From the NCBI GenBank assembly GCA_021442155.1, contig CM038229.1:72560443-72624442 (forward strand): a stretch of DNA of 64,000 nucleotides. The letters are read 5' to 3'. Position numbers and translations under genes: made by a program. Positions 3,001 to 62,626 of the stretch are shown here, piece by piece (the stretch's first letter is position 1; every line of letters starts with the position of its first letter). Source of the stretch: Cymbidium sinense. Its lineage: Eukaryota; Streptophyta; Magnoliopsida; Asparagales; Orchidaceae. The notes beneath the pieces are model-generated. The model did no database searches and had not been told where the DNA came from. It worked only from the letters and a program-made list of their open reading frames with translations.

Positions 3001-3723
3001 GAGGTTGGTTCTCCCTCTTTGGGACCTAAGTTTAATTCCTCACCTCTTAAGCATTTCCTTAATCTTATATTAAGGAATTATAAGTCCAAAATTTTTAATG
3101 AAAAATTCAACTCAAACAAACTAAATCAATTTCAAAAATAAAAAGCATAATTATATGATAGTTTGAGATTTCTTGTTAGGTTTCCTAGCATCATGGGCAT
3201 CTCCTACTTATCTTCCATTTTGGCTTTGATAATAACTCCCTCTTTTGATCAATCCCATTTGATCTTCACAAATAAACTAGTTGATTGATAGTCTTTCTTA
3301 TTAAAATCTTCAAAGGCAACGATTATTTACCTTACTCAAGAGTTTTCCTCAAGAATCCCCATTCCTTAGGATGTAATTAACTATGAGGACTTGCCCCTAT
3401 AGGGAACTTAAAGAACTCAGTTTAAAATAAATCTTGCTTTACTTTTCCATGTAAAGTAGGGTTAAAATATCTGGTACATATGGAAAACCATCATCTTTAG
3501 GAGTCCTTATTGAGGTGATTAGGTCCATTAAAGGGTAGTGACTTCTATCTCTCGAGATAGTACATTATTTCTTTGATGACATACTCGATCACCTGAATAA
3601 GTACATCTGCAGATCTGTGTAGCATCTTAACTAGACAAATTTCTATAAGGGTCTTATCCTCTTTCATTTCTCAGCAACAGATTTGAAAGGCGACTCCGAT
3701 CCCCTCATAAAATGTTTTCTCCA
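1..3723 (+). mobile_element. Giant LTR copy E, 3' half (Tat/Ogre-type element)
   Basis: No gene is visible. The stretch aligns by eye with 50440-53508 of LTR F in the same orientation (the shared text starting at the ATGTCATCTCATTGG motif near 48 and 50464), and with the reverse complement of 3760-6650 of LTR D. It ends near CTCCACA at 3717-3723, which I take as the counterpart of the CACCACA end of LTR F. It keeps about 450-500 bp (around 2800-3300) that LTR F lacks. The LTR start lies outside the window. Confidence 0.85.
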
Positions 3724-4532
3724 CAAGGATAAATCACCCGATTGCTTGGACTTACAACCGCCTGGGGGTGGCAGCCAACTAACTTCTCCTGCAATTTTAA
3801 ATTCATGTTGGCAAGTCATATGCTTTATGTAAGATTGCTAGGCAGCTATTTATTTAGAAAGAGACTAAGTCCTTAAACTCACTCTGTAAGAGACCAGATC
3901 ATGTAAGGGCATGAGAAATGACCTAGATCTAATGCAAAATATATTACATATTATTTTGATTTTTGGACAATCATTTAACTCAGGCTTATAGGATTCATAT
4001 GCCTAATGCATGAGAAGTAAGATTATGGGCCAAAATCAATGAGAGGGGTTGAGGTGTGTTTACACCATATCTCTCAAATGTCAAACCAAGTTTCTCTGGC
4101 AAAGGTAAAAGCCCTCTAATCAAGAGTGAAACAAGATGCTTTATGCATGAGGTTATAAAAGAAATACTCATCTAGCTAAGGGGTTGCTAATTCTTTTATC
4201 TTGATTTTAACTTAGGCTTTAAGTGAGGTAATGAGCTCTTTATTTTTAATTTTAAGTTGATTAATTTGGTAGAAGATTTTTTAAGAGCCTAATCGTCATC
4301 CAGACCATACATCAAAGTGAGGATAAAACTAGAAAAACATGTCATCTTAATGCACAAGCTAAACAAAAGACCACTCATTTTATAAAGCTAATGCAAAATA
4401 ACAAAAGGCTATTTGTGGTGGGGCACCACCACATAAACCCAAAAACAAATTGGGTAGCCATGCTCTACCCTTATACAACTTAGATTGCAAATGAATTAAT
4501 TTACATTTAAGCAAGAAAATTCATGTTATGGG

Positions 4533-9660: not shown

Positions 9661-9905
9661 AATTTCAAGTTGAAAGGGTGAACATGAAATGGATTTTGGC
9701 TTGATTTTTGAATTGAGTTTTGATTTGATGATTGAAGTTTATGTTTATATTTGGATTCATGATTGAAGAATTGATTGAATTATGAAGAAAAATCAAGGGT
9801 TTGGCTTGATTTGAAATTGATTTGGCTAAGTTCAAGATTTTGACTTGAAAGGCTTAGGTTGGATTTTGATTGAATTTGAGTTTGATTTTTGGAATTAGTT
9901 CAATT

Positions 9906-10215
9906 GATTTGAATTTATATTTTATTTATATATGTGGATATAAATGAGTTATGAGAAAATTTCATAAATTTGAATTGATTTAGATTTGATTTAGGCTAAG
10001 TCCATGAAGAGAAATGAAAGGACTTAGGCAAGATATGGAATTTGGAATTTCAACTTGAAATTTGATTTGATTGATTTGAATTTATATTTCATTTATATAT
10101 GTAAATATGAATGAGAATATATATGAGTTGTGAGAAAATTTCATGAGTTTGAATTGATTTGAACATGATTTAGGCTAAGTCCTTAAGAGAGAGTCAAAGG
10201 ACTTAGGCAAGATTA
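9906..10215 (-). repeat. Two copies of the ~175 bp LTR repeat
   Basis: Two imperfect units, each with a TTTATATTTCATTTATATATG-like core followed by GGACTTAGGC. LTR F carries five units (46320-47200). Confidence 0.6.
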
Positions 10216-10579
10216 GGAATTTCAATCATGGGCTTCAATCATAAGTTTCAATCATTGGTTTCAATCATGTGGCATTGATTTGAGTTTGGGAAAAAATGAT
10301 TAAGCTAGAATTGATTTAAGATTGATGTTGATTTGATTTGGAGTTTGACTTGAAGGAAGGAAGTAAGGAATATGGTTCAAGCTATAGGGTAGTCAAATTT
10401 TCTTAACACCTTTAAGGCATGACCTACTCTTATGGCTAACTCTTCTAAGTCTCTAGGGCTAGGTTGAGTGTCCACCTAATCACTAGATGTGACTTAAGAC
10501 AAAGGATCTCTTAATGTCTAAGAAGAGTCCTATGTCTAAGATGGAGGGTTGAGAGCTCATTCTAAAAATGAGGTCAATA

Positions 10580-17899: not shown

Positions 17900-19860
17900 T
17901 TTAATTTATTTTTAGAATTTTGAACCCACACTCAATAATATGAATATGTTAAGTGGGGCTCTTTGGATTTTAAGAGAGATTTTGAGTTTAGAATTGGAAA
18001 AGAGATTTTTGAATGTAGAATCCATTTTCAGTAAATTTGTGTATGTTGAAAATGGGTTCAAATATTTTTGGAGAGATTGATGCTTCCACAGGTTCATATT
18101 TGAATTTGATTTTTGAATGTGTTTGAGGACCCTTTATTTAACAAATTTGAGTATGTTAAAGTAAAGGGTCAATTGATTTTGTTTGGATTTGTGATTTTGG
18201 AATTTACTTAGCAACTTTGGGTATGCTAAGTGAGGTGTTTGAAAAAAATTTTCTTCTTTTGTTTGCCTGTTTGTGAATTATGTGTGAAATTGAAAATGAA
18301 ATCTTTACTTAGCAAATTTGGATATGCTAAATGAAGAATCCAAATATTTTATTATTTTTGAAAAGAGATTCTTTACTTAGCAAATTTGTGTATGCTAAAT
18401 AAATAATCCTAATGTGTTTTGTTTTTGATGATTTTGAAAAAAAGGATCCTTAGAAAATTTAGGCATGCTAAAGAAATCCAAATGTGTTTTATTTTTGATA
18501 ATTTTTGAAAATGGAAGTCTTTACTTAGCAAATTTAGGTATGCTAAAAAAAAAGAAATCCAAATGTGTTTTGTTTTGATTTTTGTTAAAGAGGATTCTTT
18601 ACTTAGCAAATTTAGGTATGCTAAATGAAATATCCAAATGTGTTTTGATTTTTTTTGATGATTTTGGAAAAGGGAATTCTTAGCAAATTTAGGTATGCTA
18701 AAGAAATCCAAATGAGTTTTGTTTTAATTTTTTGAAAAGAGGATTCTTTACTTAGCAAATTTAGGTATGCTAAATAAAAGATCCATGTGTGTTTTGGTTT
18801 TTGATGATTTTAAAAAGAGGATTCTTAGCAAATTTATGTATGCTAAAGAAATTCAAATATGTTCTGTTTTAATTTTTGAAGATAGGATTCTTTACTTAGC
18901 AAATTTGGGTATGCTAAATAAAGGATCCATGTGTGTTTTGATTTTTGATGATTTTGAAAAGAGGACTCTTAGCAAATTTAGGCATGCTAAAGGAATCCAA
19001 ATGTGTTTTGTTTTGATTTTTGAAGATAGGATTCTTTACATAGTAAAATTGGGTATGCTAAATAAAGGATCCATGTGTTGTTTTGATTTTTTGATGGTTT
19101 TGAAAAGAGGATTCTTAGCAAATTTAGGTATGTTAAAGAAATCCAAATGTGTTTTGTTTTGATTTTTGAAAAGAGAATTCTTTACTTAAGCAAATTTAGG
19201 TATGCTAAATAAATGATCCAAATGTTGTTTGATTTTTTATTTTGAAAAGAGGACCTTCATTTAGCAAATTTTGGTATGCTAAATGAAGAATCCAAATGTT
19301 TCGTAATTTTTTTGAAAAGGTGATTGTTGATTTTATTTTTGAAAAGATGATTGTTGATTTTATTTTTGAAAAGATGATTATTGAAAATGAAATCTTCATT
19401 CAATAAATTAAATGAAGATGTTCATTTCTACTTTTGAAAATATGATTGTTGATTTTGTTTTTGAAAATGAAATCTTCATCAAAATAAATTGAGTGAAGAT
19501 GTTTATTTGTGCTTTTTGAAAATATGATTTTAGATTTTATTTTTGAAAAGATGATTGTTGATTTTATTTTGAAATTAAAACCTTCATTTAATAAATTGAA
19601 TGAGGAAATTCATTTATGCTTTTGAAAAATATGATTGTTGATTTTATTTTTGAAAATGAAATCTTCATCAAAATAAATTGAGTGAAGATGTTCATTGTGC
19701 TTTTCGAAAAATATGATTGTTGATTTTGTTTTTGTTTTTTTTTTGAAAATGAAATCTTCATCAAAATGGATTGAGTGAAGATGTTCATTTGTGCTTTTTC
19801 AAAATATGATTTTGGAATTTATTTTTGAAAATATCCTACATATAACAATCATGAAGATTG
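17900..19860 (-). repeat. Hairpin minisatellite array, element A leader
   Basis: About 20 imperfect units, ~75-85 bp apart, sit in the untranslated leader. Plus-strand unit: arm GGATTCTTTACTTAGCA, loop AAATTTGGGTA-like, arm TGCTAAATAAAGAATCC, then a T/A-rich spacer. Examples are 18018-18059, 18128-18170 (GACCCTTTA/TAAAGGGTC arms) and 19255-19288 (perfect CTTCATTTAGCA/TGCTAAATGAAG). Units at the PBS end (19380-19800) become degraded. The repeats create long but meaningless frames on both strands. Confidence 0.85.
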
Positions 19861-20252
19861 TTAGATGAGGTTGATTTATGAAAATTTTTGTGCAAACATT
19901 TTATTATGTGCATTTGAAAAAGTGCTTTTTGGATATTATTATTTTTATAAAGGATTTATTTTTCCTTATTTATGGAATGAACCCTACCTTACCATAGAAA
20001 TGGTAAGAAGGAAGTCTTTAATTATTATTTTTGTTAAATTTTTACTTTCACCTATTGGGAAACCTAACACAGGTTTTAAAACCTTCATGGATTGAAGTCT
20101 TAAAACCTAAAAGATGTTGGCTAGCTTAGCTTAAGCATGAAATAAACTAAGTGACAACATAAAGAAAGATAGTCTCAGACTTATACAAACTACAAATCCA
20201 CTATCGATACTTGGAGACAACGATCATTTACCAAAGGTGGAGAGAGGAACCA
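19861..20252 (-). other. Element A leader next to the PBS
   Basis: Noncoding. It contains the 8-bp hairpin CTTACCAT AGAA ATGGTAAG at 19988-20007 and the palindrome GGTTTTAAAACC near 20072. Both have counterparts in element B (32061-32079 and near 32148). The rest is conserved leader text without an ORF. Confidence 0.6.
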
Positions 20253-26420: not shown

Positions 26421-27349
26421 AAGTGACCCTATCAAGGCTTTATTCAAGTTTGGTTGAACTCACATATAGACTTATGATTGAAATATAAATATATTTGCAA
26501 GTGATTTGGAGTCAAACGAGTTTTGATTCATTTGATAATTTCAAGTTCAAAGGATGAACATGGGTTTGATTTGGGTTTGTATTTTTGAATTTAGTTTTGG
26601 TTTGATGATTGAAGTTTATGATTGAATTTGGTCTGTGATTGAAGGATTGATTGTTTGGAGAGAAAATCCAAAGGTTTGAATTGATTTGAGGTTGATTTGA
26701 CTAAGTTCAAGAATTTGACTTGAAAGGGTTTATGTTAGATTTTGTTTAGAATTGGGTTTGAGTTTTGAATTGATTTTTTGGATATTTAAATTTATATTTC
26801 ATTTATATTTGTGAATATAAATGAGAATATAAATGGGTTATTAGGAAATCTCTTGAATTTGAATTGACTTGAATTTAATTTGAGCTAAGTCGATAAGATG
26901 AAATCAAAGTGACTTACGAAAGATTTTAGATTTGGACATGATCATGGATTTAATCATTTGGAATTGATTCATGATTTGAGAAAATCTATTAGAATTGATT
27001 CATGATTTGAGAAAACCCATTAGAATTGATTTGAATTTGAGAAAAATCAATTAAGTTGGAATTGATTTGAGTTTGAAGTTGGTTTGGAGTTGAAGTTGAT
27101 TTGAATTTTGAAATCTGGCTTGAAAGAAGGAAGTGAGGATTTGGTTCAAGCTATAGGGTAGGCAAATTTTCCTAACATCCCTAAGGCCTGACCTATTCCT
27201 ATAGTTAACTATTGTAAGTCTCTAGGATTAGATTGAGTGTTCACCTAATCACTAGATATGTCTTAATACTAAGGAACTCTTAGTGCTTAAGAGGAGTTCT
27301 ATGTCTAAGATGGAGAGGTTGAGAGCTCATTCCAAAAATGAGGTCAACA

Positions 27350-29339: not shown

Positions 29340-31920
29340 ATTAGATTTCTGCTTTAATTTGTTTTTTAGAATTTTAACCCACACTCAATAATTTGAATAT
29401 GTTAAGTGGGGCTCTTTGAATTTAGGAGAGAGATTTTGAGTTTAGAATTGGAGAAGATATTTTTGAATTTAGAATCCATTTTCAATAAATTTGTGTATGT
29501 TGGAAATAAGTTCAAATATTTTGAAGAGATTTTTGATGCTTCCATTGGTTCATATTTGAATTTGATTTTGTGTGTTTGAGGACCCTTCATTTAACAAATT
29601 TGGGTATGTTAAAATAAAGGGTTAATTGATTTTGTTTGGAATTACTCATTTAGCAAATTTATGTATGTTAAATTAGTTATTTGAAAATAATTTTCTTCTT
29701 CTTTTGCTTGTTTGTGCATCATGTGAATTTAGAAATGGAATCTTTACTTAGCAAATTTTTGTATGCTAAATAAAGTCCAAATGTTTACTTTTGTTTTGAT
29801 TTTTTTTGAAAAGAGGATCTTTACTTAGCAAATTTGGGTATGTTAAATAAAATGTCCAAATGTGTTTAATTTTTGTGTTTTTTTTTTATTTTGAAAAGAG
29901 GATTTTTACTTAGCAAATTTGAGCATACTAAATAAAGAATCCAAATGTGTTTGATTTTTGTATTTTTTTTTTATTTCGAAAAGAGGATTTTTACTTAGAA
30001 AATTTGGGTATGCTAAATAAAGAATCCAAATGTGTTTGATTTTTGTGTTTTTTATTTATTTTGAAAAGGAAATTTTTACTTAACAAATTTGGGTATGCTA
30101 AATAAAGAATCCACATATGTTTGATTTTTGTGAGTTTTGATAAGAGGATCTTCACTTAGTAAATTTGGATATTCTAAATAAAAGATCCAAATGTGTTTTG
30201 ATTTTTGATTTTTAAAAAGAGGGTCTTTACTTAGCAAATTTGAGTATGCAACATGAAAGATCCAAATGTGTTTTGATTTTTTGATTTCTTGAAAAAAAGA
30301 TCTTCACTTAGCAAATTTGGGTATGCTAAATCAATATCCAAATGTTGCTTTGATTTTGATTTTTGAAAAGTGGATTTTTACTTAGCAAATTTGGGTATGC
30401 TAAATAAAAGATCCAAATGTGTTTTATTTTGATTTATTTTGAAAAGAGGATCTTTACTTAGCAAGTTTGAGTATGCTAAATGAAAGATCCAAATGTGTTT
30501 TGATTTTTTATTTTTGAAAGGAGGATCTTCACTTAGCAAATTTGGGTATGCTAAATGAAAGATCCAAATGTGTTTGATTTTTGAGATTTTGATTTTGAAA
30601 AGAGGATTTTTACTTAGCAATTTTGGGTAAGCTAAATAACGAATCCACATGTGTTTGATTTTTGTAATTTTTCAAAAGAGGATCTTTACTTAGCAAATTT
30701 GGATATGCTAAATGAAAGATCCAAATGTATTTTGATTTTTGATTTTTGAAAAGAGGGACCTTTATTTAGCAAATTTGGGTATGCTAAAGAAAGTTACAAA
30801 TTTATTTTGAAAAATGAAAGTCTCATTTGAAAATTTTGGGTTTGTCAAATGGGAGTCAATTATGTTTTATTTTTCAAAGATGAAATTTTATTTTGTGTGT
30901 GATTATTGCTTTTTGAAAAGAAGGAAATTCTAACTTAACAGATGTGGGCTGTGTTGAGTGGAATTTCAAATGGTGTAATTTTATTTGAAAATAAAGCCTC
31001 CATCCAACATATTTGGATACATTAAATGAAGAGACTTATCTTCAAATTTGTACTTTTTGAAAAGAAAGAAATTTCAACTTCAACATATGTCGGATATGTT
31101 GAAATGGAATTTCAATGTGATGATTTGATTTTATTTGGGAATAAAATCTTCATTCAATAAATTTAGATATATTGAATGAGGGTGTTCATTTTCAAATATG
31201 TCCATTTTGAAAAGGTGGTTTTTTATTTTGTTTTTGAAAAGATGATTATTTTGTTTTTGAAAATATGATTATTGATTTTGTTTTTGAAATGAAATATTCA
31301 TTCGATAAATTTGGGTATATTTAATGAGAATGTTCATTTGTGTTTTTTGAATAGATGATTTTTTATTTTGTTTTTAAAAAGATGATTGTTGGTTTTATTT
31401 TTAAAATAAAATCTTCATTCAATAAATTGAGTGAACATGTTCATTTGTGCTTTTTGAAAAGATGATTGTTGATTTTTTTTTTTTGAAAAGATGATTGTTG
31501 ATGTTATTTTTTGAATGAAATTTTCATTCAATAAATTTGGGTATATTGAATGAGGATGTTCATATGTTCTTTTTGAAAAAGTGATTTTTTTTTGTAGAGA
31601 TAATTGTTGATTTTATTTATTATTATTATTATTTTTTGAAATGAAATCTTCATTCAATAAATTTAGGTATATTAAATGAGGATGTTCATATGTCCTTTTT
31701 GAAAAGATGATTGTTTATTTTTTGTTTGAAATGAAATCTTCACTCAATAAATTTAGGTATATTAAATGAGGATGTTCATTTGTGCTTTTTTTTTTGAAAA
31801 GATGATTGTTGATTTTATTTTTGAAATGAAATTTTCATTCAATAAATTTGGGTATATTAAATGAGGATGTTCATTTATGCTTTTTTAAAAGATAATTGTT
31901 AACTTTGAGTTTTTAAAAGA
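29340..31920 (-). repeat. Hairpin minisatellite array, element B leader
   Basis: About 25 units of ~75-85 bp. Clear ones recur from 29740 to 30790 with TTAGCA/TGCTAA arms. From 30817 to 31900 the arms change together: CTCATTTGA/TCAAATGGGAG (about 30818-30855), AACTTAACA/TGTTGAGT (about 30932-30960), and TTCATTCAATA/TATTGAATGAG (about 31150, 31530). The loop text AAATTTGGGTA persists. No real coding is present. Confidence 0.85.
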
Positions 31921-32328
31921 CCCTACATGTAATAATCTTGAAGATTGTTATATGAGGTTGAGATATTTTATTATGTGCATTTTGGAAAAGTGCTTTTTTT
32001 TTTGGAAATTATTGTTTTTATAAAGGATTTATTTTTCTTTTTTTTTGGAATGAACCTTTTCTTACCATAGAAATGGTAAAGCAGAAGGTCTTTAATAATC
32101 TCTTTGTATTAAATTTTTATTTTCACCTATTGGGGAACCCAACAAGGGTTTTAAGACCTACACAGAGTGAGGTCCTAAAACTTAAAGGATGTTGGCTAGC
32201 TTAGCTTAAGGATGAAATAAACTAAGTGCCAATGGAAATGAAGGATAGTCTCAGACTCATATAAAGTACAAATCCACTATCGATACTTGGAGACAATGAT
32301 CATTTACCAAAGATAAAGAGAGTAACCA
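31921..32328 (-). other. Element B leader next to the PBS
   Basis: Noncoding, homologous to 19861-20252. It holds the hairpin CTTACCAT AGAA ATGGTAAA at 32061-32079 and the GGGTTTTAAGACC segment. No ORF. Confidence 0.6.
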
Positions 32329-32346
32329 TCCCCAGCGAAGTCGCCA
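32329..32346 (-). promoter_or_regulatory. Primer-binding site, element B
   Basis: The minus strand reads TGGCGACTTCGCTGGGGA, eight bases downstream of the LTR end at 32355. It differs from the F site by two bases. tRNA-Arg type by comparison with what I know of Ogre elements. Confidence 0.8.
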
Positions 32347-38880: not shown

Positions 38881-39949
38881 GATCAAGGCTTGATTCAAGT
38901 TTGGATGAACTAACATATGGACTTATGTTGAAATAGAAATCCAATTACAAGTAATTTGGACTCAAATGGGTTTTGATTCATTTGACAATTTCAAGTTCAA
39001 AGGATGAACATGGGTTTGATTTGGGTTGGTTTGATTTTTGTTTGATGATCGAAGTTTATGTTTATATTTGGTTTGTGATTAAAGGATTGATTATTTGGAG
39101 AAAAAATCCAAAGGTTTGAATTTATTTGAGTGTGATTTGGCTAAGTTCAAGATTTGACTTGAAAGGGTTTAGGTTGGATTTAGGTTTGATTTGGATTTGA
39201 GTTTTGAATTTGGTTTTGGGTATTTGAATTTATATTTCATTTATATTTATGAATATAAATAAGAACATAAATGGGTTATGAGAAAATCTTTTGAATTTGG
39301 GGAGATTTGAATTTGGTTTGATCAAGTTCAAGGATTTGGCTTGAAAGAGTTTAGGTTGGATTTAGGTTGGGTTTGGAATTGAGTATTGGATTTAGTTTTG
39401 GTTGTTTGAATTTTAATTTCATTTATATTTATGAATATAAATGAGAATATAAATGGGTTATGAGAAAATCTTTTGAATTTGAAGTGATTTGAGATTGATT
39501 TGAGCTAAGTCCATAAGATGAAATCATAATGGCTAAGGAAAGATTTTTGGATTTAGAATTCAATCATGGGTTTCAATCATTTGATTTGGAATTGATTCAT
39601 GATTTGAGAAAATCCATTGGAAATGATTTGAATTTGAGAAAATCAATTAGGTTGGAATTGATTTAAGGTTTGATTTGGAATTGATTTGAATTTGAAGTTG
39701 GTTTGAATTTGAAGTTTGACTTGAAAGGTGGGAGTAAGGATTTGGTTCAAGCTATAAAGTAGGCAAGTTTTCCTAACACCCCTAAGGCATAACCTACTCC
39801 TATGTACAACTCTTCTAAGTCTTTAGGGTTAGGTTGAGTGTTCACCTAATCACTAGAAGTATCTTAAGACTAAAGAACTCTTAATTTCTAAAGGAGTCCT
39901 ATGTCTAAGATGAAGAAGTTGAAAGCTCACTCCAAAAGTGAGGTCAACA

Positions 39950-42986: not shown

Positions 42987-44300
42987 TTATGGGTAATATT
43001 TCTTCAAATAGATCTCATTAATTGGAAGCATAGGGTGTTCCCCTTTACAATCAATAAGCTGATAAGATCTTCCTTAGTAGGCCTTCTCTATGATAAAAGG
43101 GTCTTCCAAAGTGGGTTCAAACTTGCCTCCCATCTTTTGAAGGGCAACAATTGGTCTCCTTAGAACTAGGACAAACTCTCCTACTTGAAATGCTCTAGGC
43201 AGACCAGCTTGTTGTGAGCTTGAATCATTTTGGCCTTGTACAGCTCAAGGTTTTGGCATGCCCGTAGGCGTCTCTCCTCCAAACCTTCAAGATCTGTCAA
43301 CCACAATTTTGCATTTTTCTCTATAGTGATCCTACTACCCATTGCTATCCTTAATGATGGGAGTTAAACTTCTAATGGTAGAACGGCTTCGGACCCATGC
43401 ACTAAGGAGAACGTGGTAGATTGAGTTGGAGTTCTGTATATGGTGCGGTATGCCCACAAAGTTTAAACCAATTTCTCATGCCAATGTCATTTATTATCAT
43501 CAAGTGTCTACTTTAGTATTTGGATGAGAGTTTTGTTGAATGCCTTAGCTAGGCCATTTACCCTAAGATAGTAGATGGTGGTGTATCTCTAATCCATACC
43601 CGTGTCTCCTGGTGAAGCTGCTGATCTTAGTGATCTTGAATGCAATACCATTATTGGATATAATTCATTGAGGCACCCCGAACCTATATACAATATGGTT
43701 CCTGAAAAATTGGAGCACATGTTGAGTTGTGACCTCTCTGAGTGGGATTGCCTCCACCCACTTGGAAAAGTAGGCGCTAAGACACCGATGACCCTTGGAA
43801 GAAGGAAGATCGATCAGACCCACTATGTCGGTACCCCAACACTAAAATGGCCATGAAGCCAATGTAGGATGTAGAATGTTGGGTGGTTGATGTAGGACCA
43901 CACTGTATACCTAACATTGATGGCATCTCCTAGCCACATTCATGCAGTCTGTGATCATCGAAGGCCAGTAGTATCCTAGTCTCTTGATCTTTGCTTTCAT
44001 CTTCAAACCGGATTGATGCGCTCTACATAGACTTGAATGTACCTTAGTCATGATCTTATGAGCTTCGTGTTTATCCAAATAGCGTAACCATATTTTATTA
44101 AAAGACTGTCGGTACAAGGTGACATCCATGAGAGCATAGGAGAGAGCTCTCTGCTTCATCTGATGGGCTTGTGATTTCTCTTGAGGTAATTTGCCGATGT
44201 TTAAGTAATCTATGAATGGTTGCCTCCAGTCCAGCTCCTCATCTTTATTGGCTACAATAACCTCCCCTTCAAAAGAAAGTCTCTTGATGAGTTCAGCATC
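42987..44300 (-). pseudogene. pol: Integrase of fragment P, complete in extent
   Basis: The minus strand runs from the zinc-binding domain (EAHKIMTKVHSSLCRAH, then RRCHQC at 43911-44159) through the core. The C-terminal segments are YRTPTQST, GSEAVLPLEV, KMIQAHNK and KFEPT, then LIDCKGEHPMLPINE and IYLKKYYP, with stop TAA at 42987-42989. The second catalytic Asp reads ISNNG, not ISDNG. The Glu segment reads NGLAKAFNKTL, so that residue is Lys. Two of the three catalytic residues are therefore lost, besides stops and frame shifts. This copy defines the natural end of pol in this lineage. Confidence 0.85.
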
Positions 44301-44399
44301 AATAAGGGATAAGACTTGTCTATTTCAGACCCTTATTGGAATGAATTTATTTTTTGGACATGCAAATTCCTTAGCTAGCATGGACAAACCATCTGCTAC

Positions 44400-44760
44400 T
44401 ACATTTTATCCTTGAGGGACCTTGTAGATGGTGACCTCAAGGATTTAGGCCAATAGCTTCATAGTGTACTTGTAGTAGTGACGAAGCTTAGGTTTGAGAA
44501 CCTTATATGATCCAGCAATCTGGTTGATGACTAACTGAGAATCCTCGTAGATGTTGATGTGTTCGGCACACACTTTAATAGCTACCTCTAGGCCTACAAT
44601 TAAAGCCTTATACTTGGCTTCATTATTGGTGCATTGATTGGAGAGATAGTATGAGAATCTCATCACATCACAGTTTGGAGTTAAGAGAACTATTCCTACC
44701 CCTGGCTTTCCTGGAAGAGTAGATCATGGTTCTTCTCTTTTATGAAAGGAATCCGCACCA
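44400..44760 (-). pseudogene. pol: Second (arch-type) RNase H, fragment P
   Basis: It starts near MYFDGADSF, then GKPGVGIVLL, and MMRFSYYLSNQCTNNEAKYKALI and YEDSQLVINQIAGSYKV (44445-44666). The Asp of DSQLVINQ and the first Glu of NNEA are present. There is a frame break at about 44670-44720. It is a duplicated RNase H in the position that marks the Tat lineage. Confidence 0.83.
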
Positions 44761-45200
44761 TCAAAATACATCTCCCTATAGTGATTGTCAATCTCCCCTA
44801 AGTTCATGATTTGTTCGTCAGGGAGATCGTCACTAAGCGGGGAATCAATAAGAAGTGGGTGTGCTACTAAGAAATCCACTAGTGCTTGTCCTTTTACATC
44901 ATGGAGGGGTATGAATGTAATATCAAACTTTGAGAGAATCATGGACCGACATTCCAACCATCCGGATAACATCGATTGTGTCATGAGATACTGTAGTGGA
45001 TTGGTTCTTGAAATCAAGTTCACCTTATGAGAAAGCATATAGTATCGTAGCTTTTCGAATGCAAATAATAAAGCTAGGTAATGTTTCTCAATAGGTGGGT
45101 AGTTCACTTCAGTAGGGATCAGATGACGGCTGAGGTAGTTGAGAGCACTCTCCTTCCCTTCATCATTGGCTTAGGCCAACAAAGCGATGAGGGAGTCATC
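44724..45200 (-). pseudogene. pol: First RNase H, fragment P
   Basis: NYPPIEKHYLALLFAFEKLR and YYMLSHKVNLISRTNPLQYL lead into LECRSMILSKFDITFIP, then HDVKGQALVDFLVAHP, in one frame at 44724-45107. An upstream broken segment carries LNYLSRHLIPTEV-like text. It is a standard RNase H and tether between RT and the second RNase H. Confidence 0.82.
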
Positions 45201-45957
45201 CAATGCAGTAATGTAAAGAATGAATGGCCTACACGGGATAGGGGCTACTAGAACTGGCGGCTTCACCAAATACTGCTTGATATCTTCAAAGGCATGCTAG
45301 CACTTGTCATCCCACTTAAACTTGGTGTCCTTTTTGACAAGTGCTAAAAATAGTTTGCATCTTCCCGATATATTGGAGATAAAGCGTCTTAGATATGCCA
45401 ACCACCCTTGGAAAGATCTGAGTTGAGTTAAACTTTTGGGAGGTGGCATTTCTAAGATAGCTTTGATCTTCTCTGGGTCTATCTCTATTCCCTAATGTCG
45501 GACAACAAACCTAAGGAACTTCCCCGAAGCTACTCTGAATGCACACTTCAGGGGATTCATTTTGAGGTTATATTGCATTAACAGTTTGAAAACTACTCTC
45601 AAGTCAGAGAGATGGTCTTCCTTTTCTTTGCTTTTGACTACTAAATCATCAATATAACATTCAACTTGATGATGAATGAGTTTGTTGAAGATATGAGTCA
45701 CCACCCTTTGGTATGTAGCACCAGTATTTTTAAGGCCGAAAAGTATGACCTTATAATAATAGATTCTGATTGGGGTTTGAAAAGCAGTGTTTCATTCATC
45801 GTTGGGGGCCATCTTGATTTGGTTATAGCCAGATGACCCATCCATGAAGGATAATACTGCATGAGATGAGGCGATGTCCACCACTAATTCTGGTATAGGA
45901 AAAGGAAACCCATCCTTAGGACATGCCTTATTTAAGTCCTTGAAACTGATGCATATG
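45201..45957 (-). pseudogene. pol: Reverse transcriptase 3' part, fragment P
   Basis: Minus-strand text: FKDLNKACPKDGFPF, SFMDGSSGYNQIKM, then KLIHHQVECYIDDLVVKSK with the YIDD centre (45492-45704), LKMNPLKCAF, and ILEMPPPKSLTQLRSF. The RT is cut at 45957, in the CICVDFRDLN block, by the + LTR F. Upstream RT, PRO and gag are absent. By eye it is closer to the RT of element F (YVDD, shared HHQVEC and LKMNPLKC) than to fragment C. Confidence 0.88.
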
Positions 45958-46319: not shown

Positions 46320-47200
46320 CTTCCTTTCCCTCCCTTAAGGACTTAACCAAAATTATGATCTAAACCTATTCAAATCTTTGAGATTTTCTTATGATCCATT
46401 TATATTCTCATTTATATTCACATATATAAATGAAATATAAATTCAAACCCATCAAATTAAATTCCAAATTTAAATCCTTGAAATTTTTCTAAGTCCCTTA
46501 GTTTTCCATTAAAGGACTTATCCAAAATCTTGATCAAACCTATTCAAATCCTTGATATTTTCTCAAAACTTATTTATATCCTCATTTATATTCACATATA
46601 TAAATGAAATATAAATATAAATCAATCAAATCAAGTTCTCAAATTAAATCTCCAATTTAAAAATTTCTTAAGTCATTAATTCTCCATTAATGGACTTAGC
46701 CTAAACCTTGATCAAATCAATTCAAACCCAAGGGATTTTCTCAAAACCAATTTATATTCTCATTTATATTCACAATATAAATGAAATATAAATATAAATC
46801 AATTAAAGCAAATCATCAAATTAAATTCCCAATTTAAAAATTCCCTAAGTTCATTAATTCTCCATTAATGGCCTTAGCTTAAATCTTGATCAAACCATAT
46901 CGAAGTCATGAGATTTTCTCATAATTCATTTATATCATCATTTATATTCACATATATAAATGAAATATAAGTATAAATCAATCAAACCAAATTCAATAAT
47001 TCAAACTCTAAACTCCAAAATTCGCCTAAGTCCCTTAAATCCTTCTTAATGGACTTAGCCCAAATCATGATTAAACCACTTCAAATCCTTGAAATTTTCT
47101 AATGATCCATTTATATTCTCATTTATATTCACATATATAAATGAAATATAAATTTAAACAATCAAAACCAATTCCAAAAATCAAACTCAAATCAACTCAA
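46320..47200 (+). repeat. Five-copy ~178 bp tandem repeat in LTR F
   Basis: The TTCACATATATAAATGAAAT core falls at about 46417, 46591, 46766, 46947 and 47127. Each unit also has CTAAGTCC...TTAATGGACTTA text. The core contains TATATAAA, a good plant TATA box, in LTR sense orientation. LTR D has two units, and LTRs A and B about one or two. Confidence 0.75.
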
Positions 47201-53516: not shown

Positions 53517-53534
53517 TGGCGACTCTGCTGGGGA
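53517..53534 (+). promoter_or_regulatory. Primer-binding site, element F
   Basis: TGGCGACTCTGCTGGGGA, eight bases after the LTR. From memory, a plant tRNA-Arg ends ...CCCCAGTGGAGTCG plus CCA, which pairs with about 16 of 18 bases. Ogre elements are known to use tRNA-Arg. Confidence 0.8.
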
Positions 53535-53989
53535 TGGTTTCTCTCTCCATCTTTGGTAAATGATCATTGTCTTTGAATATCAATAATGGGTTTGTACTTT
53601 GGTATGAATCCAAGACTATCCTTCTTTTCATTGGCACTTAGCTCATTTCATTCTTGAGTCGAGTTAGCCAACCTCTTTAGGTTTTAGTACCGCATTCTTT
53701 GTTGGTCTTAAAACCCCCTTTGGGTTCTCCAATGGGTAAAATGAAAAGATCTAAATAAAAAGATAAAACAACTTAAAGACTTCCTCCTTATCATTTTCAT
53801 GATATAGAAAGGTTCACCCTAAAATAATTAATCTTCCATAAAGAACTTTGCTTTTTCAAAAGCACCCTTTCAAAAAATGCACTTAATAAAATATTTTCCA
53901 CAAAATTTTATCACCTTCATTTAACAATTCCCATAATTGTTACATGTACTAATTTTCAAAAATAAAACTAATAGAATTTTCCAATAGCA
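53535..53989 (+). other. Element F leader before the array
   Basis: Noncoding, homologous in reverse to 31921-32328 and 19861-20252: CATCTTTGGTAAATGATCATTG, then GTTGGTCTTAAAACCCCC and GGGTTCTCCAATGGGTAAA-type text. The CTTACCAT hairpin is decayed here. No ORF. Confidence 0.55.
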
Positions 53990-56160
53990 CAAATGAACAT
54001 CTTCTTTCAATTCATTTTGATGAAGATGTCATTTTCAAAATAAAAATGAAAAATCATCTTTTTCAAAAATCACAATAATAACCAAAAATTTTTTAAAAGC
54101 ACACATGATTCTTCCTATTCAATACACTCACACTTATTGAATAGAAAGTTTATTTGTAAACAAAATTAAAATTTTCAAAAGCACACATGAATACCTTAAT
54201 TTAATATACTTAAGTTTATTAAATGAAAATTTCATTCTCAACTAAAAATAAAATATCATTTAGGAAATCCCACTTAAACATATCTCACATATGTTTTAAG
54301 TTGGAATTCCCCCCTTTCAATAAGCAGCAATCACACAAAACAAAATTTTCATATTTTGAAAATAAAATTGATCTCTATTCTATGTACCTAAATTTGTTGA
54401 ATGGAAATCCTCTTCTCAAAACATTAAAACATCACAATCATATTTCAAAAAATTTTCAAACATAAACATATATTTAGAACTTCATTTAGCATAATCAAAT
54501 TTTCTAAGTGAAGTTTCCAAATCCAAAATCAAAATCAATAATCATATTTCAAAAATTTTCTAAATATAGTTTTGGAACCTCACTTAACATACCCAAATTT
54601 GTTAAGTAAAGTCTCCAAATCCAAAATCAAAATTTTCTAAATACATTTGGAACCTCACTTAACATACCCAAATTTGTTAAGTGAAGTCTCCAAATTCAAA
54701 ATTCAAAATTTTCAAAAGATACATTTGGAACATCATTTAGCAAATTCAAATTTTCTAAGTGAAGTTTCCAAATCCAAAATCAAAATCAACACTCATATTT
54801 CAAAATTTTTTAAACACATTTGGAACCTCACTTAACATACCCAAATTTGTTAAGTGAAGTCTCTAAATTCAAAATTCAAAATTTTCAAACAACATTTTGG
54901 AACTTCATTTAACATACCGAAATTTGTTAAGTTTCCAAATCCAAAATCCAAAAAATTTTTTGAACATACATTTGGAACTTCATTCAACATAATCAAACTT
55001 GCTAAGTGAAGTTTCCAAATCCAAAATCAAAATCAACAATCATATTTCAAAATTTTCTAAACACATTTGGAACCTCACTTAACATACCTAAATTTGTTAA
55101 GTGAAGTCTCCAAATTCAAAATTAAAAAAATTTTCAAACAATATTTTGGAACTTCATTTAACATACCCAAATTTGTTAAGTAAAGTTTCCAAATTCAAAA
55201 TCCAAAATTTCTCTAAGCACATTTTTGGAACCTCACTTAACATACCCAAATTTGTTAAGTAAAGTCTCCAAATCCAAAATCAAATATTTTTTAAAACACA
55301 TTTTGAAACCTCACCTAGCATACTCAAATTTGCTAAGTGAAGTTCCCAAAGTCAAAAAAAAAAAAAATTCTTTAACACCTTTGGGACTTCTTCCCTTAGC
55401 ATACCAAATTTGCTAAGGAGAAGTTTCCATTTTCAAAACCAAAATGAAATCAAAATTTGGAATTTCATTTAGCATACTCAAATTTGCTAAGTAAAATTTG
55501 CATTTCACAAAACCAAGTGGAACTTCATCTTTAGCATACCAAATTTGCTAAAGTTGAATCTCCACATACAAAAATACATCAACAACAAAATGAAGCACCT
55601 TAGGATTCCCTTAGCATACCAAATTTGCAAAGGATCCTACCCTTTTCAAAAATCAAAACTTTCCAAACAAATGAAACACTTAGGATTTTCTTAGCATACC
55701 TAAATTTGCTAAGAATTCTATTTTCAAAAATTATACAAAACACACTTAGGTTTTTCACTTAGCATACCTAAATTTGCTAAGTGAGAATGCCAAAATTTTC
55801 CAAAATCAAAACAAAATTCACAAAAGCAAACAATCATTCTCAAACACTTCACTTAGCATACCTAAATTTACTAAGTAAGTGAAATTCCAAATCAATCAAA
55901 CAAAATGAAATTATTTGACCCTTACTTTAACATACCTAAATTTGTTAAAGGAAAGGGTCCTCAAATCAAGAAAATTCAAAAACCACAATGAACCTATGGA
56001 AGCATCCTATCAAAAAATTTGAATCTATATTTTAACATACTTAAATTTGTTGAAGTTTGGATTCACATTCAAATTCCTCTTTCAATCAATTTCTTCAAAT
56101 CCATTTGAACCCCACTTAACACTTCCAAGTTGTTGGATGTGGATTCAAATTTTCAAAATT
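53990..56160 (+). repeat. Hairpin minisatellite array, element F leader
   Basis: About 27 units in sense orientation. The first is CTATTCAATA/TATTGAATAG near 54117-54146. From 54580 to 55260 the arms are CACTTAACA/TGTTAAGTG or ATTTAACA/TGTTAAGT with loop TACCCAAATT. After 55300 they become TTAGCA/TGCTAA. Near 55917-55965 they are GACCCTTACTTTAACA/TGTTAAAGGAAAGGGTC, and near 56108 CCCCACTTAACA/TGTTGGATGTGG. The last unit lies about 110 bp before the ORF1 ATG. Confidence 0.88.
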
Positions 56161-56272
56161 CAAAATTCAAAAAATCTATGGAGAAAGAAATCTGATACAA
56201 GTTCATTTCTCATTGCAGGTTCTTTACAATTAGTACAACACAGTTCAGTTTCAGTCTACTATAGTTTTGGAA

Positions 56273-57930
56273 ATGGCCAGTTCTCAAAAATTTGTCTTTG
56301 CCTTCCCTCATGGTATGGATCTAACTTTAGATTACACTGACTTCCCCAGTTTGGACCATACCCACTTGATTCACTTTGGCCAAGTTTTTGAGGGGGCCAT
56401 GATCACTTGTGAGGGCATTCCCCTCACCTCAGTTAGCAGGACGAAGGTGACCGAGTAGAAGCCGGTCATCAGGATAGACTTACCTTCTGATTTGGATGTT
56501 TCCTCACTGAATAGGAAAGTTGTCGCAGTACCATAGACTTCAGCTGTTACAATGTCAGTAGTACCGGCAGTTCCAGCTCTAGTTGCAATTTGTCCCAGAG
56601 TTTCCTATGTTGCCCCAGTGCAAGCAAGTACCCTACCATCTGTACCCTTCAAGGGTAAGGCTCCCCTGATTTTAGGGCTTGCCTCACTGACATTTTAGTA
56701 TGGTTCTAGCTCGCACTCCTCCTATCCTACCCGTACCCAGCGTAGGAACAAAAATTGTATGATCAAATAGTTCCATACTTGGATAGCAAGGGAATAAGAG
56801 CCAGCAGCTCGAACAACCATGGATGAGTTTCCCATCATCACTTCACCACTGGTTACAAAAAACTAATTTCATCCTCTCTCTAGATCAGAAAGAGCAGATG
56901 TTAGGAGGATCTGTTCATCACCTCCTCTAGTGCTACACTTACAACTAGCAATTTCTAAAAGTAGGAGGTCATACCGCACCCTCACATTTCCAGGTGGCAT
57001 ATAGGCCGAGTTTGGGACACAGTTTGACCTTTGATTTGTTATCCCCCGCAGCGTAGGGAGGCATATTCATTAGGAGAGGGCCCGTGAGGCCCATATATCA
57101 CATATTACAAGCGATGGAGGTTGGAGGTTTCGCTTTGATAGATTTTCAACTCGGTGCTACGCATAGCATCTTCTTCTCACTAAGACAAGCCACCACAAGA
57201 GGGTAGTTCCTGTGCATAGAGATTCAGTGGTGTCTCCACCCCACCGTTCTACCCCTTGTATGCCATCACCATTATAGGTTACAGTTTCTTCCATTCCATC
57301 TAAGGCCATGAAGGTCACATCCGAACCTCATTGGTGATCGATCACGACAAGGGATCTACCCCTCTACACCACCCATTGTGGTAAGGCCGAACTCTCCGCC
57401 GACCTTCAACAATGGTGGTGCGAAAGTGGCGATCCCAAAGCATCGTGGTCACCAACACCCATACACGGATGTGGAGATGGTGGTTATCAGATATTCTAGA
57501 TGAAAGTTCGATTAAAGAAGATCATCCTAAGATTGTTACCCCTATTACAGCTAGTAGTAGTCAAAAGTATCATTCTTCTAGTGATGAGTTCACAGATTGA
57601 CTCTCTGGGCGAGATCCTGCCTCGTTCATAATAGTAATCAAACCGTTCTAAACTATTTGTACCTCGAGTTAGATCATTAGATGAGATAGTTGCACATGGA
57701 GAAGAAGGAGATCTTAGGGTACACCTGTCATTGAAGAGAGAGTCAACATCCTAATGAAGATGACTTGATGGGGATTGATTATGCATATACATGTTCTTTT
57801 CTAGAAACAATAGGCCATGGAAGGTGATGAGGTTGATCAAGAAGACACCACAGAATCAGCACAACACCTCTGACATCAATTAAAGTAGAAGGACAAGTGA
57901 ATTGATAGGATGGTGCGTCAATTATAGGAC
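56273..57930 (+). pseudogene. ORF1/gag 5' part of element F
   Basis: The ATG at 56273 opens MASSQKFVFAFPHGMDLTLD, then HTHLIHFGQVFEGAMITCEG and LTSVSRTKVTE before a stop at 56456. Matching starts in elements A (17814) and B (29265) fix this ATG as the real one. The text continues degraded (VIRIDLPSDLDVSSLNRK) through Pro/Ser/Thr-rich sequence to SLDEIVAHGEE near 57680 and QLKQKDK near 57885. The last two match the B frame SLDDIVAKYL and QLKQKDEQ. No named domain is evident. It could be a separate ORF1, as in Ogre, or the extended N-terminus of gag; the B copy reads towards gag without an obvious gap. Confidence 0.7.
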
Positions 57931-61068: not shown

Positions 61069-61235
61069 ACTTGAAATCTAGCTCGGACGATGAGTCTAAT
61101 GTGATTAGTATACCAGCCAACCCCTCTTAACGGGTTCCATTAGACGTGACTTTTGATCCAGCCAAAGATGAAGATTAGGCCTCCAAGCAAAGTAAAGTCC
61201 TCGAATCTAGTTTATGTGAAACTATTAGGTAGCAG
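61069..61235 (+). other. Degraded spacer after protease
   Basis: Stop-rich text with SSSDDESNVISIPANPS-like residues. This is where Ogre elements carry an intron; no clear GT/AG pair can be asserted. Confidence 0.3.
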
Positions 61236-61883
61236 TTGGGAACCTTAGCTCTAACCTCACTTATATCTCAGAAAGTTGAAGTTTTAATAGTTAAGGAAGT
61301 CCCTAAGTCTTCCAGTGAAATGAAGCAGAAGAAGTTCTTTTTGGGATCATCCTCCTCAAGCCCTGAAGTTGATGTAGAGCTTGAGGAAGATACTTTTAAA
61401 GAATTAATGGAATTTCCTTTTGACTTTTACTTGCATTGTGTTCAAAATTTTATACAGAAAGGTTTAGTTCCTCACACATGGTCCAAGCACAGGTCAGAAT
61501 ACTTCAAAAATCTATGGAACAATACAGGTAGGGAAGCACAATCAAGAGTAGGACTAGGATTCGGTACAATGGGTCAGGTCGATGATGAAGATTATTGCCT
61601 AGTTATTACAAACCATTTGGAGTCTGATATGTTCTTCTCGTGCATCCCCAACTCTTATGAGAATGTGTGTTTAGAAACTTCATATGATCTAGATGATCTC
61701 CAAGTCAAAGATGCACCACTAGAATTTGAAGAGGAGATTCATTCAACAATCAACAAGTTTAAAGAAATCAACCTCAAGACAGAAGAAAATCCTTGCCTGA
61801 CATACATTAGTTTGTTGTTGAATAAAGAAGAAACCAATGACTTAGTTAGGTTGTTGACTAAGTTTAAAGACTGCTTCACATAG
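61236..61883 (+). pseudogene. Protease-RT linker, element F
   Basis: A 215-codon open frame, the longest intact linker in the window. It contains EFPFDFYLHCVQNFIQKG, GLGFGT, DDEDYCLVITNH, the acidic LEFEEEIHSTINKFKEINLK, and ends NDLVRLLTKFKDCFT at the RT boundary. Fragment C (13231-14080) keeps the same landmarks in the same order. That supports a real conserved domain rather than spacer. No catalytic motif is visible. The true start is probably further upstream in a fused pol frame. Confidence 0.65.
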
Positions 61884-62626
61884 AGTTATGAAGAGATGCC
61901 CAAATTATCTCTTGACGTAGCTATCCACAAGCTAGTAATAGCATTACCACTATTAAGCAAGTTCCTAGATGCATGCAATTAGAAATTAAATAATAGGTCA
62001 TTTCTGAAGTCAAGAAATTGATTGATGCTGGTTCCATTAGGGAAGAAAAATATCCTTCCTAGTTAGCTAATGCCATCCCAGTTAAGAAGAAGAATGACCA
62101 AACTTGCATTTGCATCGATTTTAGGAACTTAAACAAGGCATGTCCTAAGGATAAGTTTCCTCTTTCTATACCAGAGTTAATGTTGTACATTGCCTCATCT
62201 CATGCAGTCTTCTCTTTTATGGATGGGTCATCTGGCTATAACCAAATCAAGATGTCTCCTAAAGATGAAAGAAACACTGCTTTTCGAACCCCAATTGGAA
62301 TTTTTAGTTATAGGGTCATGCTTTTTTAAAATGCGGTGCTACATACCAGCATGACCCATCTTCAACGAACTCATCCATCATCAGGTTGAGTGCTATGTTG
62401 ATGATCTAGTATTCAAAAATAGAGAAAAGGAAGACCATCTCTTTGACTTGAGAGTAGTTTTCAAACGGTTAAGACAATATAACCTCAAGATGAATCCCCT
62501 GAAATGTACATTCGGAGTAGCTTCAGGAAAATTCCTTGGGTTTGTTGTTCAACATCGAGGAATAGTAATAAATCCTAAAAAGATTAAAGATATCTTAGAA
62601 ATGCCACCCCATTAAGAGTTTAACTC
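61884..62626 (+). pseudogene. pol: Reverse transcriptase 5' part, element F
   Basis: Text SYEEMPKLSLDVAIHKL, IPVKKKNDQTCICIDFRNLN, FMDGSSGYNQIKM, AFRTPIGIF, HHQVECYVDDLVF with the YVDD centre, LKMNPLKC and KFLGFVVQHRGIVINP. It stops at ILEMPP...KSLT, where LTR G begins at 62627. Frame shifts occur near 62330 and 62610. The rest of RT, RNase H and integrase would lie beyond the nested insertion, outside the window. Confidence 0.88.

Follow-up and report, generated by a model that had tools for sequence, protein, structure and literature searches.

Tandem hairpins with co-varying arms between the PBS and ORF1 of giant Ty3/gypsy retrotransposons in Cymbidium sinense

Little is known about how plant Ty3/gypsy retrotransposons select genomic RNA to be packaged. 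In retroviruses, the psi/DIS leaders hold a few distinct stem-loops, and some of these viruses carry packaging signals downstream of a splice donor. BARE has been described as separating translated from packaged RNA (PMC3735527). Tat elements (Ogre, Retand) are known to carry short tandem repeats, variable in number, in their 3' region, from pol to the 3' LTR. An origin of these repeats during replication has been proposed (PMC7004042, PMC11963269), with slippage or recombination in the course of reverse transcription as the suggested cause (PMC7004042). The word 'hairpin' is absent from the main texts of PMC7004042 and PMC11963269.

Here, a window of 64 kb (the whole stretch of DNA that was analysed) is described, in which hairpin arrays sit between the PBS and ORF1 of three related elements. 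The original prediction knew of no described equivalent, and this still holds: among the matches listed in literature searches, with most subscription papers outside their scope, no retrotransposon leader with a hairpin array appears. The co-changing arms suggest that the folded RNA once had a job, perhaps as a packaging mark.

The window and its retrotransposon copies

Nested copies belonging to a single giant Ty3/gypsy family fill the window, and three degraded copies were studied, elements A and B on the minus strand and element C on the plus strand (Table 1). These copies are old. Only two ORFs of at least 200 aa are present in the whole 64 kb, the frames being degraded, and the longest blocks common to A and B share 79-87% identity. 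The LTR-like repeats have about 7 kb, a size inferred from self-comparison of the window, and their blocks are nested and partly inverted. Self-comparison also places two LTR-like stretches head to head at 3560-3800, on the plus strand before about 3700 and on the minus strand after it.

Regarding the coding domains, element A possesses on its minus strand the Pfam order RVT_1, RT_RNaseH, RVT_3, H2C2 and rve, with weaker matches for RVT_3 (E 4e-4, slightly below the curated cut-off), H2C2 (0.007, weak) and rve (2e-6, below the cut-off). RVT_3 is taken here to stand for aRH, the archaeal-type second RNase H. The Ogre domains include aRH (PMC7004042). Judged by Pfam domain order alone, A, B and C would fit the Tat lineage (Ogre-like) of Ty3/gypsy. 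Tat/Ogre-like traits are an extra ORF1 ahead of gag and a very long element with very long LTRs; the window has LTR-like repeats with an inferred size of about 7 kb, and the start of ORF1 is conserved. When the early frames were tested against Pfam, no domain was named, and about 180 bp separate the open frames 61233-61880 and 62063-62326, both degraded. The PBS sequence, for which no match is expected by chance and which is degraded in A, presumably matches tRNA-Arg, as in Ogre elements.

Table 1. Positions of the features discussed, numbered along the 64-kb window
Feature	Position	Strand	Remarks
PBS of element C (TGGCGACTCTGCTGGGGA)	53517-53534	+	exact match
PBS of element B	32329-32346	-	same sequence with 2 mismatches
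Leader of element C	up to 56272	+
Candidate 5' splice site TTTG/GTAAATG	53556-53561	+	21 nt after PBS; identical in A, B, C
Two-hairpin module, element C	53637-53715	+	53637-53663 and 53680-53715; kept in A, B, C
Two-hairpin module, element B	32148-32226	-	kept in A, B, C
Two-hairpin module, element A	20071-20151	-	kept in A, B, C
Array of element C, 22 units by profile	54185-56069	+	loop spacing 62-105 nt, 5' part with larger gaps; TRF row 54463-55495
Array of element B, 25 units	29368-31876	-	profile and hairpin scan; TRF row 29792-31886 with gaps
Array of element A, 17 units	18012-19298	-	profile, hairpin scan and TRF; TRF row 18290-19832
Candidate 3' splice site TTTCTCATTGCAG/G	56206-56218	+	preceded closely by a branch-point-like CTGAT; top score among 95 AG in C
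ORF1 start of element C	56273-56320	+	ATG at 56273, immediately 3' of leader; homologous ATG in A, B; coding frame degraded
RT pieces of element C	62063-62612	+
Tandem repeats of ~178 bp near LTR start, copy of element C	46330-47188	+	hairpin-bearing, G-poor; TRF; local fold z -12.8
Further ~178-bp LTR-start repeats with hairpins	9903-10222, 39143-39503, 26700-27110	-	A/T-rich stem in all four places
Partial further copy just before start of 5' LTR of C	43914-45957	-	RVT_1, RT_RNaseH, RVT_3 (7e-11), H2C2 (integrase zinc domain) in 43914-45791

Hairpin units and the co-variation of their arms

The original prediction had placed the array between the PBS and ORF1 and claimed its recurrence in A and B. 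The array is real and lies there, as confirmed by the sequence, TRF, a hairpin scan against shuffles and a unit profile, which also finds it in both other elements. The profile was built from 52 seeds picked by loop pattern, pairing not being used, and matches with E ≤0.01 were counted as units; matches above 0.01, including weak ones on the opposite strand, were excluded. The 64 units obtained (17 in A, 25 in B and 22 in C) are all sense-oriented in their element, and the best profile match in the rest of the 64 kb beyond the three leaders has an E of 0.84. The array comparison covers the three leaders of the window. In addition, a mechanical hairpin scan detects, at a score of at least 10, 12 (C), 8 (B) and 8 (A) hairpins per leader, some with other loops, versus 0-2 in five dinucleotide shuffles per leader.

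The units share a near-constant 10-nt loop with the consensus TACCYAAATT, which reads TACCCAAATT in 17 of the 64 units, TACCTAAATT in 14 and close variants otherwise; the loop is thus almost constant, as first stated, a constancy partly built in because the 52 seeds were chosen by loop pattern. The stems have from 8 to about 16 pairs. The initial figure of up to about 16 pairs is true of the best units, many others having mismatches or bulges, and the stem pairs named at the outset, such as CTTAACA/TGTTAAG, are present in C. Considering units with 10-nt loops only, identity is highest in the loop (84-85%), followed by the inner stems (72-77%) and the outer stems (42-53%). The linkers between the hairpins are A/C-rich and G-poor, with G contents of 3.7-4.6% in linkers, 0.4-1.8% in loops, 9-12% in left arms and 17-23% in right arms (18/22 units of C, 25/25 of B and 17/17 of A).

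Towards the 3' end, a number of units have recognisable counterparts across A, B and C that cluster together in the tree, and the mid-array unit types differ between C and A/B. Part of the array of element A (18290-19299, minus strand) shows long-stem and short-stem units alternating with a period of about 144 bp, both arms being shortened in the short-stem type. A protein-coding array was considered and rejected, as the distances between loops in C range from 62-105 nt to larger values without being consistently multiples of 3, and the open frames are short. Rfam yields no match at gathering score in the window, and a tRNA or tmRNA search yields none. The core pattern has no match in viral_contigs; its one exact match in genome_contigs, from Idiomarina, was taken as chance (21 fixed bases, 257 billion bases).

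In aggregate, the tests support stem co-variation in excess of what tandem drift or a tree-based null would produce. The own arms of the units pair with a mean of -12.97 kcal/mol, versus -9.47 (sd 0.40) for arms swapped within the element (p ≤0.0003 in each of A, B and C), a contrast boosted by unit types that differ in stem length. In tree-aware simulations, whose p values, like all those for co-variation, are guides only, since tandem units recombine and their tree is uncertain in itself, 55 of the 64 units hold 113 alternative Watson-Crick cells over 16 pairs versus 41 (sd 10), the highest of 1000 simulations reaching 83. The nine remaining units, with shifted register, were dropped from the 55-unit runs (tree simulation, branch changes, paired-run count and pooled alifold). 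All 64 units hold 88 such cells over 12 pairs versus 50.9 (sd 12.7, p = 0.007), so the phylogeny-aware null is exceeded in both sets. By element, the excess is seen in B (34 versus 13.5) and C (31 versus 13.8; p = 0.002 each); element A alone has none (9 versus 8.1 simulated, p = 0.38), and its paired cells number 150 versus a null of 119.5 (p = 0.002).

Changes from one Watson-Crick pair to another on the same branch amount to 9.4 versus 2.9 (sd 1.7, p = 0.004) in 55 units over 16 pairs, where slid pairings give 0.4-1.9; such paired changes amount to 4.35 versus 1.4 (p = 0.024) in 55 units over 10 pairs and 8.95 versus 1.7 (p = 0.002) in 64 units over 10 pairs. One-sided changes from the paired state are about ten times as many as paired ones (~97 versus ~9). 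Moreover, cells changed on both sides number 128 versus 64.7 (sd 7.2) in column shuffles, and the covariation score of 0.354 exceeds both the shuffled value of 0.216 and the range of 0.094-0.197 obtained when partners are slid. Column by column, a per-pair APC test with a simulated null, taken over all 1035 pairs, puts none below an E of 0.05 (lowest value 0.2, for stem pair 3); when only the 18 stem pairs are counted, E is 0.004 for stem pair 3, 0.025 for stem pair 13 and 0.068 for stem pair 8. Thus, the proposal that the arms change together stands for the aggregate tests; it does not extend to any single column pair over the 1035, or to the alternative pairs of element A taken by itself. 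RNAalifold, suggested as a check on the aligned units, predicts no pair and no consensus over all 64, and does give consensus energies within each element.

The alternative named along with the original prediction, a plain tandem expansion of one palindromic unit followed by random decay, is extremely unlikely. The arrays are indeed tandem, their units are related and one-sided changes predominate; however, own arms should then pair no better than swapped arms, and they do pair better, in addition to the excess over the tree-based simulations. The stems therefore go beyond ordinary tandem drift, as had been argued.

Besides the arrays, a module of two single-copy hairpins lies less than 200 nt after the PBS. 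Its pairing reaches 94.4% of 72 cells versus 23.6-56.9% when slid, and 11 of its 24 pairs vary, with 9 G.U versus 2 A.C cells. The column shuffles are weak, 51 of 500 being equally good, and the stem columns vary like the others (14/48 versus 14/43). As a conserved structure compared in three sequences only, the module may be regarded as suggestive. The first 220-230 nt 3' of the PBS fold with about -59 kcal/mol in sense versus -45 to -50 in antisense.

Hairpins are also seen in the tandem repeats near the LTR start, which served as a folding negative control and were not negative. A CTAAGTCC...GGACTTAG-like stem, whose inner pairs vary, is clearest in 46330-47188 and 9903-10222. Consequently, the leader is not the sole place of this kind in these elements, and a general hairpin-making process in them is possible.

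Strand preference, possible function and rival explanations

The strand tests are mixed and lean towards sense RNA. In context, the mean inner-8 pair probability is 0.78 in sense versus 0.48 in antisense for C, 0.61 versus 0.29 for B and 0.62 versus 0.39 for A. The local fold z is -10 to -12 in sense for all three, and in antisense -2.6 for B, -2.8 for A and, for C, -10.5 and -7.3, array scores that are inflated because one hairpin recurs many times. Other stretches give -4.0 (LTR middle), -6.4 (5' part of the C leader) and -0.1 (57000-57900, downstream of the ORF1 start). Isolated hairpins are almost as stable in antisense (-12.65 kcal/mol versus -12.97 in sense). The alifold energies by element are -6.5 in sense and -4.9 in antisense for A, -8.3 and -4.1 for B, and -6.7 and -8.3 for C, and those of 55 pooled units, which were also required to have 10-nt loops, are 0 and -3.3. 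With G concentrated in the stems and scarce in linkers and loops, the sense linkers stay open.

Regarding wobble pairs, there is no overall preference for G.U, with 95 G.U versus 97 A.C cells over 16 pairs. On internal branches, changes from Watson-Crick to G.U versus A.C are 10.9 versus 14.0 (55 units, 14 pairs) and 8.2 versus 5.0 (64 units, 10 pairs), counts with no clear RNA signature. Stem pair 7 is standard in 64/64 units in the MAFFT alignment (U.G 33, U-A 18, C-G 13, never C.A), with one C.T cell in the gapless register, and C.A is found at stem pairs 9 and 11 in 13 units each.

The reading we prefer, tentatively, is that of a cis-acting platform of sense RNA for packaging or dimerisation. 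The array would be transcribed as part of the genomic RNA and act in cis as an RNA structure on the full-length sense transcript, about 20 hairpins of 8-16 pairs presenting nearly one 10-nt loop, with A/C-rich linkers open between them. The loop would be the recognised part, and the array together with the two-hairpin module would form a multivalent platform through which genomic RNA binds Gag, is packaged or dimerises. RNA-level selection, beyond mutation, would have preserved the pairing during the active life of the element, and differences in copy number would come from slippage or recombination during reverse transcription. The location of the hairpins, after the PBS and before ORF1, fits a packaging signal of retroviral type, and the packaging or dimerisation role first proposed may apply. 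A repeated hairpin with a near-constant loop also offers a concrete and testable packaging-signal candidate, with about 20 natural variants per element.

The main rival is mutational upkeep, where template switching, through a change of strand inside a hairpin during reverse transcription or replication, makes and re-perfects palindromic units, tandem duplication spreads them and the fold has no function; it is considered somewhat unlikely. Template switching is documented and yields compensatory changes (PMC8794818; PMC3820800), hairpins are present in the LTR repeats as well, and G.U is no commoner than A.C. Its clear footprint, a multi-base run, is not seen, the paired changes being isolated, with about 8.8 branches holding one, 0.16 holding two and none adjacent (55/64 units), a small sample of about nine branches. 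As described, isolated paired changes cannot separate template switching from selection (PMC8794818). Imperfect pairs persist (U.G at pair 7 in 33/64 units, C.A at pairs 9 and 11), so correction by template switching would need to be inefficient, and template switching alone leaves the constant loop and the G-poor linkers unexplained. From the initial claim of selection on folded RNA or DNA, then, the co-variation excess stands, but its attribution to selection is weakened, as template switching also keeps stems paired; the array is a test ground for whether paired changes in repeats come from the one or the other. A DNA-level function, with the repeated palindromes extruded as cruciforms or bound by a protein of the host or of the element, seems very unlikely. 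Palindromic motifs of Sirevirus LTRs have been likened to cis-acting transcriptional activators (PMC2829016), and the lack of an overall G.U preference would agree with such a function; however, the stem sequence varies while pairing persists, unlike a fixed binding motif, and in context the fold is better on one strand.

It is decidedly improbable, in our estimation, that the array lies in a facultative leader intron (53556-56218 in C), whose splicing its folds would aid or impede, the spliced RNA placing ORF1 near the 5' end and the unspliced RNA serving as genome. By scores with rough, untrained weights, the candidate donor is joint top of 80 GT in C and third in A and B, and the C acceptor scores 12.0, with a runner-up at 7.8 among 95 AG sites. 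The ATTGCAG of this acceptor is kept in A, and CTAAT stands in A and B at the position of CTGAT in C, giving a branch-point-like CTRAT in all three elements. The leaders contain 27 (C), 39 (B) and 30 (A) ATGs, about the composition expectation, so that scanning could hardly reach ORF1, and Ogre is known to splice elsewhere, between its two main ORFs (PMC6317226). Conversely, the acceptor motif is altered and the site lost in B, the weaker acceptor of A is outside the six best, A and B have stronger donors and other higher-scoring sites, and plant introns are U-rich (PMC3735527), whereas this leader is A-rich. A strong acceptor-like site, TTRTTAYATGTAG/G, is also present before the array at 19836 (minus strand) in A and 31923 (minus strand) in B, where C differs. 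The retroviral logic of a packaging signal downstream of the donor would, by analogy, fit the candidate leader intron. Its combination with the preferred packaging platform, that is, a hairpin platform variable in copy number inside a facultative leader intron, with the donor 21 nt after the PBS and the acceptor just before ORF1, is improbable; if true, splicing would remove the platform from the mRNA, leaving it to unspliced genomes alone.

Comparison with known systems

The array resembles hairpins of RNA maintained by template switching in that the stems stay paired via paired changes (PMC8794818); those hairpins are the product of a mutation process, whose multi-base footprint is not seen here. 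The Sirevirus motifs, like the hairpins here, are palindromes present in many copies in non-coding sequence of plant LTR retrotransposons (PMC2829016). The Sirevirus motifs, however, are short, mostly with a CGG-CCG core, and belong to Ty1/copia LTRs (PMC2829016), compared to the long hairpins of variable stem in a Ty3/gypsy leader described here. As in the psi/DIS leaders of retroviruses, a structured RNA would lie between the PBS and the first gene, with exposed loops and possibly downstream of a splice donor; the difference is that about 20 related hairpins are present here. The Tat 3' repeats are found in the lineage into which the present elements would fit, and both consist of short units repeated in tandem, differing in number, within internal sequence that is non-coding. 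Nevertheless, the Tat repeats follow pol, while the array described here precedes ORF1, and its unit is a hairpin with a near-constant loop.
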